Below, in pieces: positions 4,873-38,810 of a stretch of DNA of 40,220 nt. Source of the DNA: Clostridia bacterium (GTDB lineage: Bacteria > Bacillota > Clostridia > Christensenellales > Borkfalkiaceae); contig JAFQVL010000046.1 of the NCBI GenBank assembly GCA_017408045.1, forward strand, positions 1 to 40,220. The letters are read 5' to 3'. A program made the translations under genes and the position numbers. The stretch's first letter is position 1. The number at the start of each line of letters is the position of its first letter. Under the pieces are notes generated by a model. It had not been told where the DNA came from, searched no databases, and saw only the letters and a program-made list of their open reading frames with translations.

Positions 4873-5583
4873 ATGGAAAAGAGAGCGCAAATGTACGAAG
4901 GAAAAGCAAAGAGAGTATATGCAACCGACGACCCCACGATGGTTATCGTATCCTATAAGGACGACGCAACGGCGTTTAACGGCTTGAAGAAGGGTACGAT
5001 TGCAGGCAAGGGCGTCATTAACAACAAGATGAGCAACTTCCTTATGCAGATTTTGGAAAAGGAAGGGGTCAAGACCCATTTTGTGGAAGAGCTTTCCGAA
5101 CGCGAAACCCTCGTAAAAAAGGTGTCTATCGTTCCTTTGGAAGTCATCATTCGCAACATTTCCGCAGGTTCGTTCGCAAAGCGCTACGGCGTAGAGGAAG
5201 GGGTGGTGTTCGACGCGCCCACCATCGAGTTCTCCTATAAGAACGACGACCTTGGCGACCCTCTTTTGAACGAGTACCACGCGTTGGCGTTAAAACTTGC
5301 CACCAAGGCAGAAATCGAACAGATCAAGGCGATGGCGTTCCAAGTAAACGCAACCTTGAAAGAATACTTCAAGAAGCTGAACGTCACCCTTGTAGACTTC
5401 AAGTTGGAATTCGGTAAGACGGTGGAGGGCGAAATCGTACTTGCGGACGAAATCTCCCCCGACACCTGCCGTTTCTGGGATTCGACGACGGGCGAAAAGT
5501 TGGACAAGGACCGCTTCCGTCGCGACCTTGGCGGCGTAGAAGGCGCATATCAGGAGATGATGCGCCGCTTGATGGGGGAATAA
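4873..5583 (+). CDS. purC: SAICAR synthetase
   Basis: This 236-residue enzyme joins CAIR and aspartate using ATP to form SAICAR. The N-terminal [14 protein letters not shown] is the family's ATP-binding opening. [25 protein letters not shown] and [12 protein letters not shown] are the two classical PurC signatures. It is the usual length for bacterial PurC. It lies 30 bases after purE and 4 bases before purF. Confidence 0.97.
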
Positions 5584-21059: not shown

Positions 21060-21616
21060 TAAGCTGACATGACTTGAATCATTTAGGTTTTGACGGCGAG
21101 AAATCCCCTAACTGTTCAGGATTTCCTCTTGCAATACGGGCAGTATTCCTGCGCGAAAATCCTTTCATTTAAGAAATTTCGCGCTCGTGAAAACTGCAAA
21201 GCATCTTAGCCGGACAAGAGTAATACAAACCTGCTGCAATGCGCGCCATTTTCTTAACTTTCGGCAAATCCGCACTTGTAGTATTGATATACAACTGCGT
21301 GCGTCTTCACCAAAATTTATCGAAATATTCACGCATTGCAGTACGCAGTAATTCTTAATGTGCTGATTTTGGATAAGACAAGGCGAAACCGCAGGGCAAC
21401 CTAAACGGTTTACCGAGGATTTCAACGCAGTATTTAGACAAAATCAGCCATTAAAAATCAGGCTTGTATTATTCTTGTCTGGCTACAATAGAGATTTTGT
21501 GATGCATTTAGGCGGTGGCGACCGCCGCCGTATCGTTATACTGCAAGGGCGCAACCGTCTTAAAGGCGCGCAAAATAACATTTTAAGACTGAAATGATTC
21601 AAGTCTTGTCAGCTTA
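21060..21616. mobile_element. 280-bp inverted-repeat element, copy A, interrupted by another element
   Basis: The ends TAAGCTGACATGACTTGAAT (from 21060) and the complementary sequence ending CTTGTCAGCTTA at 21616 are inverted repeats of about 25 bases with one mismatch. The interior matches copies B (26915-27193) and C (27787-28066), including the GGCGGTGGCGACCGCCGCC hairpin. Without the nested insert (21207-21485) it is about 278 bp, the same as the others. It encodes nothing. It occupies most of the 749-base gap between the dipeptidase gene and the radC promoter, and acts like a MITE or a structured RNA unit. Confidence 0.85.
21207..21485. mobile_element. Nested insertion element of a second family
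   Basis: This segment is absent from the other two copies of the host element. It has its own imperfect inverted ends: TAGCCGGACAAGAGTAATAC at the left and the complement of TAGCCAGACAAGAATAATAC at the right, about 27 bases with three mismatches. TA may be duplicated at the borders. Inside are further inverted arms such as GCTGATTTTG/CAAAATCAGC. No protein is encoded. It is nearly the same size as the element it interrupts. Confidence 0.75.
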
Positions 21617-25596: not shown

Positions 25597-25627
25597 ACGC
25601 CCTGCGCTAAGGCAGGGCGTTTTTTTG
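25597..25627 (+). terminator. Terminator of the HU gene
   Basis: ACGCCCTGC and GCAGGGCGT form a perfect stem around GCTAAG, followed by a run of T. The first repeat of the adjacent palindromic array starts at its end. Confidence 0.9.
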
Positions 25628-25850
25628 TGAAGTTTTTGCTAAAAGCAAAAGTGAAGTTTGGGGCGGTTGCCCCAAGTGAAGTTTGCACCATGTACAAGTG
25701 AAGTTTCGCCTGATGGCGAAATTATGGAAATATTCCACAACGATTGCCAAAGGCAATCAATTCACGAACGGCGTTGCCGTTCAATTCACGCCGTGAGGCA
25801 ATTCACGAAAGCAAAGCTTTCAATTCACTTACCCAAAGGGGAAACTTAGC
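25627..25850. repeat. Palindromic hairpin array A (hybrid motif)
   Basis: The left half has four direct GTGAAGTTT motifs (25627, 25651, 25676, 25698), separated by short inverted repeats such as TTTTGC-TAAAA-GCAAAA, GGGGC-GGTT-GCCCC and TTTCGCC-TGAT-GGCGAAA. After an AT-rich centre (about 25721-25740) the right half has four AATTCAC motifs (25759, 25783, 25800, 25822), separated by GATTGCC-AAA-GGCAATC, GAACGGC-GTT-GCCGTTC, GCC-GTGA-GGC and GAAAGC-AAA-GCTTTC. Every linker hairpin has a different sequence. The array fills the gap between two convergent genes. No frame in it is credible. Confidence 0.9.
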
Positions 25851-26914: not shown

Positions 26915-27193
26915 TAAGCTGACAAGACTTGAACCTTTTAGGTTTTGACGGCGAGAAATCCCCAAATTGTGCAGGATTTCCTCTTGCAATACGGACGGTA
27001 TTCCTGCGCGAAAATCCTTTCATTTAAGAAATTTCGCGCTCGTGAAAACTGCGTAGCATCTTAAAATAGGGATTTTGTGATGGATTTAGGCGGTGGCGAC
27101 CGCCGCCGTATCAGCATACTGCAAGGGCGCAACCGTCTTAAAGGCGCGCAAAATAACATTTTAAGACTGAAAGGTTCAAGTCTTATCAGCTTA
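26915..27193. mobile_element. 280-bp inverted-repeat element, copy B
   Basis: This is a complete, uninterrupted copy of 279 bp. The ends TAAGCTGACAAGACTTGAAC (from 26915) and the sequence ending CTTATCAGCTTA at 27193 pair over about 25 bases. Inner stems: AAGGATTTTCG-type arms around the GCAATAC/GTATT hairpin, TTTAAGA with TCTTAAA, GGCGGT-GGCG-ACCGCC, and GTCTTAAA with TTTAAGAC. No coding capacity. It sits between the yitT start and the rplI terminator. Confidence 0.88.
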
Positions 27194-27786: not shown

Positions 27787-28066
27787 TTAGCCGTTTCAAA
27801 CCAAGTTGAACCAGCCTTAAAATGTTATTTTCCGCGCCTTAGGGCGTTTGCGCCCTTGCAGTATGTCGATACGGCGGCGGTCGCCACCGCCCAAATCCAT
27901 CGCAAAATCCCTATTTTAAGGTGCTACGCAGTTTTCACGAGCGTAAAAGACCTTAAATGAAAGGATTGTCGCGCAGGAATACCGCCCGTATTGCAAGCGG
28001 AAATCCTGCACAGTTTAGGGGTTTTCCGCCGTTAAAACCTGGTTCAATTTGGCTTGAAACGGCTAA
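27787..28066. mobile_element. 280-bp inverted-repeat element, copy C (opposite orientation)
   Basis: This 280-bp copy lies in reverse orientation to copies A and B. Its ends (TTAGCCGTTTCAAACCAAGT from 27787, and the matching inverted end closing at CTAA 28066) pair at 26 of 28 positions, yet differ strongly from the ends of A and B. The interior is clearly the same, including GGCGGTCGCCACCGCC. Relative to copy B, the inner stem TTTAAGA/TCTTAAA becomes TTTAAGG/CCTTAAA, a compensatory change. It lies directly upstream of the DUF1540 ribosome binding site and fills most of the 395-base gap. Confidence 0.85.
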
Positions 28067-28407: not shown

Positions 28408-29553
28408 ATGGAAACGGTTAGCGAGAAAGAGAAGAACCCTGTTTTGGCGTATTTAAAGGCGTTGCCGAAACGCTTTTTTATCACCGCATTTTCGGGTATG
28501 GCGCAGGGCTTGTTCGTAAGCCTGATTGCAGGCACGATTTTGGCGCAGATTGCAGGCTGGATAGGCGTGGACCACTTTGATGCGGGTGGAAACCTAATCA
28601 AAGGCAACTACGTTGGCAATACCTTGTTATACATAGCGAATATCGCAAAATCTCTAATGGGCGCAGGCATTGGCGTGGGGATTGCGTACGCGCTGGGTAA
28701 GAATAAGTTGCTGATCTTTTCCGCCGCAATCGCGGGTCAGGTCGGCGCGTTTGCCGATAAGTTGATGATAGGGGCGGCAACTCCTTTCGCCTCTTTAACG
28801 TGGGGCACGCCGGGCAATCCTATCGGCGCGTACGTCGTCGTGATGCTCTGTATCGAGTTGGTTTCCCTTTACGCAGGCAAAACCAAGTTGGATATTATCC
28901 TCATTCCGCTTGGAGTGATGGTGCTTGCCCTTGCAGGCGTGTTCGTCGCCTTTCCTTTTATCGAGCTTGTCAAGTTGCTTGGCAACGCCATTGAAAAAGC
29001 GACGGAAATCACCCCCTTCTTTATGGGGATCATCATCGCGGTTGCGATGGGGATTTTGTTGACGATGCCTACGTCTTCGGCGGCGATTTGGCTGTCCTTT
29101 GCCTTAGGCAACGAGTCGAATGCAATGCTGCTGGCGGGTGGCGCGGCGACGGTAGGGTGCGCCTGCCATATGATAGGCTTTGCGGTGGCGAGTTTCCGTG
29201 AAAACGGCATCGGCGGTTTAATTTCGCAGGGGGTAGGTACGAGTATGCTGCAAATCCCCAACGTGATGAAAAAGCCTCAGATTATGCTGCCTATGGTGAT
29301 TTCCAGCGCGATTTGCGGTCCGCTTGCCACCTGTGTCTTTGGGCTGCAATGCGGCGCTTCGGGCGGCGGTATGGGTACGAGTGGACTGGTAGGGGTGTTC
29401 GACCTCTTCAAATACACGCCGATGACGCCGCTGGGGATTGCAGGGATTATCCTTTTGATGTTCGTATTGCCTGCTGCGCTCAACCTGGGAATTTCCGAGT
29501 TCATGCGCGCCAAGGGTTGGATAAAGTCTGGGGATATGAAACTTGCCGATTAA
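28408..29553 (+). CDS. PTS EIIC-like membrane protein (PTS_EIIC_2 family)
   Basis: This 381-residue integral membrane protein has about nine or ten hydrophobic segments. It opens with LKALPKRFFITAFSGMAQGLF, continues with GVGIAYALGKNKLLIFSAAIAG and the Gly-rich GCACHMIGFAVASFRENGIGGL, and has GTSMLQIPNVMKKPQIMLP and CGASGGGMGTSGLVG. These are typical of the predicted membrane proteins grouped as PTS_EIIC_2, sometimes annotated as PTS sugar transporter subunit IIC. No EIIA or EIIB gene is nearby, so phosphotransfer-coupled uptake is uncertain. It has its own promoter and terminator. Confidence 0.8.
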   Translation: METVSEKEKNPVLAYLKALPKRFFITAFSGMAQGLFVSLIAGTILAQIAGWIGVDHFDAGGNLIKGNYVGNTLLYIANIAKSLMGAGIGVGIAYALGKNKLLIFSAAIAGQVGAFADKLMIGAATPFASLTWGTPGNPIGAYVVVMLCIELVSLYAGKTKLDIILIPLGVMVLALAGVFVAFPFIELVKLLGNAIEKATEITPFFMGIIIAVAMGILLTMPTSSAAIWLSFALGNESNAMLLAGGAATVGCACHMIGFAVASFRENGIGGLISQGVGTSMLQIPNVMKKPQIMLPMVISSAICGPLATCVFGLQCGASGGGMGTSGLVGVFDLFKYTPMTPLGIAGIILLMFVLPAALNLGISEFMRAKGWIKSGDMKLAD

Positions 29554-29603: not shown

Positions 29604-29831
29604 GTGAATTGAAATCTTTGATTTCGTAAATTGACGGCTTTGCCGTCGTGAATTGAACGCTAGAAGCGTTCGTGAATTGCAAGGCTGCTGCCTTGCGTTA
29701 TGGAAAAATTATAAATACTGCCGCAACGATTGCCGTAGGCAATCAATTCACGTTTTGCAAAATCAAAACAATTCACGCCGCAGGCAATTCACGCGACAAA
29801 CGTCGCAATTCACGGCAAGGCTGTGCCTTGC
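29604..29831. repeat. Palindromic hairpin array B (GTGAATTG/CAATTCAC motif)
   Basis: The left half has GTGAATTG motifs at 29604, 29625 (as GTAAATTG), 29648 and 29671, separated by AAATC-TTT-GATTTC, ACGGC-TTT-GCCGTC, AACGC-TAGAA-GCGTTC and CAAGGC-TGCT-GCCTTG. The centre (about 29697-29726) is AT-rich. The right half repeats AATTCAC between GATTGCC-GTA-GGCAATC, GTTTTG/CAAAAC, GCC-GCA-GGC, GCGAC/GTCGC and GCAAGGC/GCCTTGC. Like array A it fills a gap between convergent genes and begins directly after a terminator. Confidence 0.9.
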
Positions 29832-29833
29832 GC

Positions 29834-30328
29834 TCAAATTTTTCGTTTCAATTCCTTTATGGCATTAGAAAGGAATTGTTCTGCCGTTGTGCCTTTGCGG
29901 ATGAGTTGCAAGGCCTCCTCAGGAGTGCACCAGCGCGCCTCAGCGATTTCCTCGTTGAGTTTGATAGGTCTGTTTTCCTCTACGACGACGAGGAAATTCA
30001 GCATCAAAATATCCTTGGGCTGGTAATAACGAGAGGACATATATTTGGCTTTTACTACGTCCAAGCCCAATTCCTCTTTGATTTCTCGGGGTACGGTTTT
30101 TTCGGCGTTTTCGCCCTTCTTCACATAGCCTGCAAACAGGATAAAATCCTCGTCTTCGGCGTGCTTAGCCAGTAAAATTTTGTCCTGAGCGCGGTTGACG
30201 ACCACCATGGACACCGCCACGGAAAATTGCGGAAACATATAGTTTTCACAACGGTTGCAATAGGGGACTAACCCCTCGTTCTCACAAAATCTAAGGGATA
30301 ATTTCTCCCCACAGTTTCTACAATACAT
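29834..30328 (-). CDS. Nudix hydrolase with N-terminal zinc ribbon
   Basis: This 164-residue enzyme has a four-Cys ribbon at the N-terminus (YCRNCGEKL near 2-10 and PYCNRCENYMFP near 22-33), then a complete Nudix box GYVKKGENAEKTVPREIKEE followed by LGL, matching Gx5Ex7REUxEExGU. The ribbon plus Nudix order resembles NADH pyrophosphatases (NudC), but the protein is shorter and the SQPWPFPxS motif after the box is replaced by YYQPKDILML, so the substrate may differ. The upstream GAGGGGA is a good ribosome binding site. The stop codon lies just past array B. Confidence 0.9.
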   Translation of the reverse strand: MYCRNCGEKLSLRFCENEGLVPYCNRCENYMFPQFSVAVSMVVVNRAQDKILLAKHAEDEDFILFAGYVKKGENAEKTVPREIKEELGLDVVKAKYMSSRYYQPKDILMLNFLVVVEENRPIKLNEEIAEARWCTPEEALQLIRKGTTAEQFLSNAIKELKRKI

Positions 30329-34329: not shown

Positions 34330-34340
34330 TTGCCTACAAA

Positions 34341-34881
34341 ATACGGCGCAATACGGCGTTGCGCTGTGGCAACCTTCGGTCGTTTACTCATAGTAAACTC
34401 CTTCAGGTTTTCCTCGCGCGCCTTGTCTTGCTTGCATTTTTTAACGGCAATGCCTACAAAATACGGCGCAATACTTTGTCGAACTTGCGTTTTCCCTCGC
34501 TCATTTACGTTTGTAAATGCCCCGTCGGGAAAGCCGCGTTCTTCGCGTCTTGCTTGTATTTTGCTACGGCAATCCCTACAAATACGGCGCAATACGGCGT
34601 CGAACCTGTGCGCCTTTCAGTCGTGTACGGGTAGTACACTCCTATCAAGGTGCTCGGTTCTCCTTGTCTTGCTTGCAACTGCAACGCAAAAAAATACACT
34701 ATGGTTGGGCTTTGCATAGGATTTACGGCGCAATACGGCGTTGCGCTGTGGCAACCTTCGGTCGTTTACGCATAGTAAACTCCTTCAGGTTTTCCTCGCG
34801 CGCCTTGTCTTGCTTGCAACTGCAACGCAAAAAATACACTATGGTTAGGCTTTGCGTTGGATTTGCGGCGCAATACGGCGA
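34341..34881. repeat. Hairpin-unit repeat block, locus 2 (four units and a stub)
   Basis: Units begin with TACGGCGCAATAC at 34342, 34462, 34583 and 34724, and a stub starts at 34864, giving periods of 120, 121, 141 and 140. Each carries a central hairpin: GTTTAC-TCATA-GTAAAC in unit 1, CATTTAC-GTTT-GTAAATG in unit 2, GTGTAC-GGGTA-GTACAC in unit 3, and GTTTAC-GCATA-GTAAAC in unit 4. Units 1 and 4 are nearly the same. Each unit contains GTCTTGCTTG. The linker of units 3 and 4 holds CAACGCAAA with a matching TTTGCGTTG (exact in unit 4). No real gene lies here; the region separates the BFD gene from the YwaF-like gene. Confidence 0.9.
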
Positions 34882-38588: not shown

Positions 38589-38810
38589 GTGAAGTTTTTG
38601 TTTTACAAAAGTGAAGTTTGCGCTTTGCGTAAGTGAAGTTATTTCGTTCAACTCATAGTGAAGTTTTGCTTAAAGCAAAGTTAAGGGATCATTTTATAAA
38701 CCCGTCGATCATTTTTTGCAATGCAAAAAACTTCACTGTCCGCAGGACAACTTCACTTCATAGAAACTTCACCGCCAAAGGCGACTTCACTGTGTTTGCT
38801 TCAGCAACAC
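38589..38810. repeat. Palindromic hairpin array C (GTGAAGTTT/AACTTCAC motif)
   Basis: The left half repeats GTGAAGTT(T) at 38589, 38611, 38633 and 38658 with hairpins including TTTTGT-TTT-ACAAAA and TTTTGC-TTAAA-GCAAAG between them. A centre (about 38679-38713) with ATTTTATAAACCC separates it from the right half, where (A)CTTCAC alternates with TTTTTTGC-AAT-GCAAAAAA, TGTCC-GCA-GGACA, TTC-ATA-GAA, CGCC-AAA-GGCG and a final GTGTT/AACAC hairpin that lies inside the ispDF 3' end. The stop codon of ispDF overlaps the last motif. Unlike arrays A and B it lies between two genes read in the same direction. Confidence 0.9.

Follow-up and report, generated by a model that had tools for sequence, protein, structure and literature searches.

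A mirrored heptamer-hairpin array in a Clostridia genome as a probable dispersed copy of a small S23p-encoding element

What kind of element is a run of small hairpins, punctuated by one short motif and laid out as two mirrored halves, that lies between the genes of a bacterium? We consider this question for one such element, array B, at positions 29604..29813 of contig JAFQVL010000046.1 from a Clostridia bacterium (assembly GCA_017408045.1), of which we analyzed the whole stretch of 40,220 nucleotides, hereafter the window. In our judgment array B is probably a REPIN-like dispersed copy, lacking an open reading frame (ORF), of a small selfish element that, when complete, encodes the protein S23p and whose heptamer would be the cognate motif of that protein.

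Array B, which has no strand as a whole, consists of four units, a centre and four mirrored units, as seen by direct reading, alignment of copies, folding and covariation. Its left half (29604..29696, plus strand) repeats the heptamer GTGAATT and a hairpin four times, with the heptamer intact at 29604-29610, 29648-29654 and 29672-29678 and hairpins at 29611-29625, 29633-29647, 29655-29671 and 29679-29696; its right half (29728..29813, minus strand) repeats a hairpin and AATTCAC four times, with hairpins at 29728-29744, 29752-29769, 29777-29785 and 29793-29806 and linkers at 29745-29751, 29770-29776, 29786-29792 and 29807-29813. The halves are delimited from the sequence and from stem covariation, across ten copies in the case of the left half. 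Every gap between linkers is filled by a hairpin with zero unpaired bases. The window holds 12 instances of the motif GTGAATTG where 1.5 would be expected, a count reached in none of 100 shuffles, and the folding energy of array B falls far below that of dinucleotide shuffles (z of -7.0 as RNA and -6.1 as DNA). Direct reading, motif count and folding energies together bear out the mirrored plan described in the first-pass annotation, though some of its finer points need amendment. The linker is not wholly regular, because the second one on the left (29626-29632) has mutated to GTAAATT; stems of 5-8 bp are the rule, but one, GCCgcaGGC, has just 3 bp; and of the nine hairpins counted, the ninth is the perfect GCAAGGC..GCCTTGC beyond the last linker (29815..29831, no strand), but a tenth, imperfect one (GTTATGGAA...CCGCAAC; 29697..29727, no strand), evident from sequence and copy alignment, makes the centre. 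A scan of the window against Rfam at gathering score gave no match for the array, its sole match being a tRNA.

These hairpins are kept by selection. When ten GTGAATT-type copies are aligned to a common plan, 96.6% of cells pair, two-sided pair changes number 14 against 6.3 in shuffles, and covariation scores 0.128, over threefold the 0.038 of shuffles. Identity is 95% in linkers and 86% in stems and falls to 48% in loops, which are almost free to vary; it is the small hairpins that this evidence supports.

Array B is one member of a dispersed family. About 30 scattered copies of the heptamer-hairpin plan, an approximate number based on stretches of the genome, occur in the source metagenome-assembled genome (G000; 1.28 Mb, 81% complete), where linkers define two subfamilies, GTGAATT and GTGAAGT. 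Two further copies lie in the window, neither with an assigned strand: array C (38589..38790), of the GTGAAGT subfamily, between two minus-strand genes, and array A (25627..25828), a hybrid with GTGAAGT linkers in its left half and AATTCAC linkers in its right. An independent hybrid occurs in another species (L396). Halves mostly terminate in GTT(A/G)N(G/T)G, and paired halves are always inverted in genomes of the genus, while in G051, from another family, they run in the same direction, so that arrays are likely to be built from halves. At one copy in the source genome (L046; contig C27, about 4930-5030), an extra terminator-like hairpin replaces the usual AT-rich loop of the centre.

The pieces that the first-pass annotation reported as common to arrays A and B are real, and its proposal that modules are exchanged between arrays holds in part. 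Most of the sharing between A and B reflects common descent: both derive from a single element, with a stem type characteristic of every position. Exchange on top of this descent is supported by hybrids, recombined stems and varying unit number. In genome G034, a small set of stem types serves each array position, and the proposed search for shuffled modules found inner stems GCATTAC and GCAAGGC together with second stems GCGCC and GAGAGCC in all four combinations, the stem GCAAGGC at different positions, and halves of 4, 5 or 6 units. Elsewhere, the right arm of an S23p element in G065 (L280) is expanded by tandem repetition of a two-hairpin unit, present there five times or more.

Sites of insertion also come and go between species. 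Arrays that are invariant and inherited like ordinary intergenic DNA are not what this comparison revealed; sites differ, and orthologous empty sites exist. When the copies in G000 are compared with the arrays of G034 (16) and G022 (32), none turns up with the same two flanking genes; the latter two genomes have two array sites in common, and syntenic alignments between them show an array in one that is missing or replaced in the other. The position given for array B, directly after a terminator and between convergent genes, agrees with the sequence: it lies between a transporter gene (28408-29553, plus strand) and a NUDIX gene (29834-30328, minus strand), with a terminator-like palindrome, AATAGCCTTCC...GGAAGGCTATTTTTTT, visible by eye upstream, where a consensus scan raised no flag. 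In the relative G071, the same gene pair has a terminator and no array. The gene context of copies is mixed, with codirectional, convergent and divergent pairs, and all copies examined are located between protein genes, none of them inside a 23S rRNA gene.

A full-length copy on another contig of the source genome (L052, contig C40) points to what may lie behind this dispersal. There the two halves are separated by a 117-codon ORF at the position that the centre occupies in array B. Its product, which the window copy lacks, is by profile match a member of the S23p, or 23S rRNA intervening-sequence protein, family (PF05635, E 2e-26; TIGR02436, 106 bits against a cut-off of 24; PDB 2rld, E 1e-30), a four-helix bundle known from 23S rRNA intervening sequences (PMC4990558). 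A search of the genus gave 28 S23p genes; mirrored heptamer-hairpin arrays surround most of them, and the linker is particular to each group. The S23p element of the GTGAATT type found at L052 occupies the fhs-glnS locus in five species, and the S23p copy there is under strong purifying selection (pN 0.14-0.27 vs pS 0.72-0.87); at this locus, G034, G071, G035 and G032 have just a hairpin or linker scar, and other genomes have a short clean gap. With S23p conserved at one locus and ORF-less copies scattered, the pattern is therefore as described for RAYTs and REPINs. We also observed another intergenic repeat, GGTCACGTACG...TACGCTCCC-like, in several fhs-glnS gaps (L413, L416, L421, L422, L428, L431) and at L270:3013-3326, in places where other species carry an array or S23p element.

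The association of S23p with a heptamer extends across several bacterial phyla, and the heptamer sequence follows the S23p tree. When 13 linker types are mapped on a tree of 67 S23p proteins, they require 13 changes, the minimum being 12 and the mean for shuffled labels 25.1 (0/200 shuffles as low); the proteins are short and many forks are unresolved, but clustering by linker is still plain. Closely related S23p genes of the AGTTATATT type, with related arrays, are spread over several families, which suggests horizontal transfer of these elements. Tandem heptamers or heptamer-hairpin arrays flank 72 of 108 S23p genes compared with 3 of 55 control loci (p 4e-15), and at least two of those three control matches are the S23p element itself, beside glnS. 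Tandem repeats of period 7 occur at 40 of the 108 S23p genes and at none of the 55 controls, other periods being rare at S23p genes of other classes and plasmids, and in 13 of 16 cases with repeats on both sides the same heptamer unit is present in inverted copies. This separation depends on a unit-based test; neither a plain 6-mer count nor RNA folding z-scores told S23p flanks apart from control flanks. Among plasmids, those of Nostoc, Anabaena, Gloeocapsa, Dolichospermum and others have S23p flanked by perfect tandem heptamers, as do those of Bernardetia, Chlorohelix and Treponema; when both flanks carry heptamers, one flank mostly repeats the unit of the other in inverted orientation. S23p with hairpin-interleaved arrays was found on two phage contigs. 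Matches to the linker pattern in viral contigs were mostly single, chance ones.

On other replicons, S23p elements are in some cases placed inside other genes or next to them. On plasmids NZ_CP040299.1 and NC_019772.1 (L454 and L455; Nostoc and Anabaena), S23p and its heptamers lie between cas2 and cas1, which may explain why a list of genes located near CRISPR adaptation modules (PMC10910872) includes the 23S rRNA intervening-sequence protein. On plasmid pNsp_c of Nostoc ATCC 53789 (L443), S23p with CAATTCG arrays directly follows a short ORF whose annotation is DNA cytosine methyltransferase and which may be a gene that was interrupted.

How might such an element spread? The working unit would be a heptamer, GTGAATT in array B, followed by a small hairpin, with about four units per half-element and GTTrnGG at its end; two inverted halves would give an array copy, and full-length copies would hold S23p between the halves or beside them. 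The heptamer may serve as the recognition motif of S23p, and the mirrored arms, folded as RNA or single-stranded DNA, may make insertion tolerable in transcripts. By analogy with RAYT and REPINs, S23p produced from one or a few conserved loci could help ORF-less copies spread in trans. The link between S23p and heptamer is itself strong, whereas binding, action in trans and the chemistry of movement are steps that we infer.

Several observations weigh against this reading. No enzymatic activity is known for S23p, which leaves the model without a chemistry of movement, and the best empty site gave no clear target-site duplication when aligned with its occupied counterpart. The S23p gene is no more frequent in genomes with GTGAATTG arrays (4 of 13) than in others (9 of 24), and no GTGAAGT-type S23p was found in G000, itself an 81%-complete assembly. 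G034 holds 16 arrays without an S23p gene, although its fhs-glnS scar suggests that an array was once present there. In other classes of the phylum, repeats were found at only 12 of 30 S23p genes at the thresholds used. Folding predicts that left linkers pair with right ones, but in the GTGAATT subfamily a single-base change in a linker has no compensating change in the other half, and hybrids exist, which leaves such long-range pairing a prediction. Stacked four-way junctions, for which the mirrored linkers might be taken as proof, are predicted by the fold, but a strict need for them is made doubtful by these uncompensated changes, the hybrids and the directly repeated halves of G051.

Could the arrays instead be conventional miniature inverted-repeat transposable elements (MITEs), mobilized by a transposase that the host or a second element encodes, S23p being a passenger in a good landing place? 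Dispersed, intergenic, ORF-less copies with inverted halves would fit, as would the S23p elements that lie within or beside other genes. We consider this unlikely, since a passenger would not be expected to track the heptamer on the tree, nor to be accompanied time and again by period-7 repeats across several phyla. Neither target duplications nor ends like those of a transposon were seen, DDE transposases and transposase ends lying outside the survey; neither G000 nor G034, which is 93% complete and has 92 linker pairs, yielded a Y1 transposase (PF01797), and none of nine array genomes yielded a reverse transcriptase (PF00078). Y1 transposase and reverse transcriptase are accordingly rejected as drivers, their domains not being found in the genomes searched. 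Another view is that the arrays serve the host as RNA or DNA elements, such as stabilizers in 3' untranslated regions, RNase III processing sites or transcript spacers, with S23p as their regulator. Stem covariation would be expected of such elements, copies do adjoin terminators or lie between genes of one direction, and pneumococcal BOX repeats are thought to affect co-transcribed genes (PMC3049150). The mixed gene context, positions that are not conserved between species, copies that appear and vanish at orthologous sites, and the failure of folding energy to split S23p from control flanks make this explanation improbable.

Recombination or slippage could also copy modules within an old repeat family under concerted evolution, with no mobile element at all. 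This would account for the hybrids, the four-gamete combinations, the variable unit numbers and the tandem expansion at L280, but it leaves species-specific sites, empty orthologous sites and the close S23p elements of different families unexplained, and we give it little credence. A CRISPR-like array or other defence store is brought to mind by the regular spacing and by the listing near CRISPR adaptation modules (PMC10910872). That idea is already contradicted by what lies between the repeats, which are palindromes recurring between loci and not foreign spacers; no defence model matches S23p, and the cas link can stem from the S23p elements between cas2 and cas1 on the Nostoc and Anabaena plasmids, leaving it next to no chance of being correct.

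Having weighed these alternatives, we prefer to regard array B as an ORF-less copy of an S23p-encoding element, and this fits into a broader discussion of bacterial repeats. No role has been known for S23p since it was first found in rRNA insertions (PMC4990558), and tandem heptamers, the most abundant intergenic periodic repeats of prokaryotes in the SPADE survey, are without a clue to their function (PMC6344855). The S23p link gives these repeats a candidate partner and, being specific and co-evolving, brings both puzzles within reach of straightforward binding and deletion experiments. In a literature search that left aside preprints and most subscription journals, we found no published link between S23p and heptamers beyond the description of the Coxiella intervening sequence, in which three tandem heptamers precede the S23p ORF (PMC4990558); with that exception, the link is reported here. 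Our findings suggest a second, RAYT-independent route to hairpin-repeat families in bacteria. A wider and tentative proposal is that bacteria harbour a general class of mobile elements made up of S23p and its cognate heptamer, without a conventional transposase or reverse transcriptase, and that the abundant, unexplained tandem heptamers of bacterial genomes, 23S rRNA intervening sequences and hairpin arrays would all be products of this class.

The window also holds other repeats: an interspersed family of about 110-200 nt in both orientations at 85-95% identity (21060-21594, 26915-27172 and 27839-28040), and a further family of tandem-like copies of ~110 nt and ~76 nt (387-676 and 34330-34880).

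In cyanobacteria, tandem heptamer repeats go by the name STRR. Tandem heptamers in general (PMC6344855) resemble array B in their 7-base unit and in being intergenic, widespread and unexplained in function and origin, but they are contiguous, whereas the linkers of array B are parted by hairpins. Pneumococcal BOX repeats (PMC3049150) are likewise modular, structured and dispersed, with a varying number of internal modules, yet their module sequences and structure differ and S23p has not been reported for them. The Avd protein of diversity-generating retroelements (PMC10053308), which has a role in nucleic-acid copying, is a homologous four-helix bundle; unlike those systems, the array genomes yielded no reverse transcriptase. 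REPIN-RAYT systems (PMC3116915) share with our arrays the inverted pairs of hairpin-bearing halves scattered between genes and the group-specific repeats that flank a gene of few copies, but here there are 8-10 hairpins instead of two REP sequences, no GTAG tag, no Y1 transposase in the two genomes searched, and S23p in place of RAYT. In the 23S rRNA intervening sequences of Coxiella and Leptospira, long suspected to be selfish or mobile, S23p also lies in the loop of a stem formed by inverted arms, with tandem heptamers before the Coxiella ORF (PMC4990558); in contrast, the elements described here lie outside rRNA, alternate their heptamers with hairpins, and exist in many ORF-less intergenic copies.
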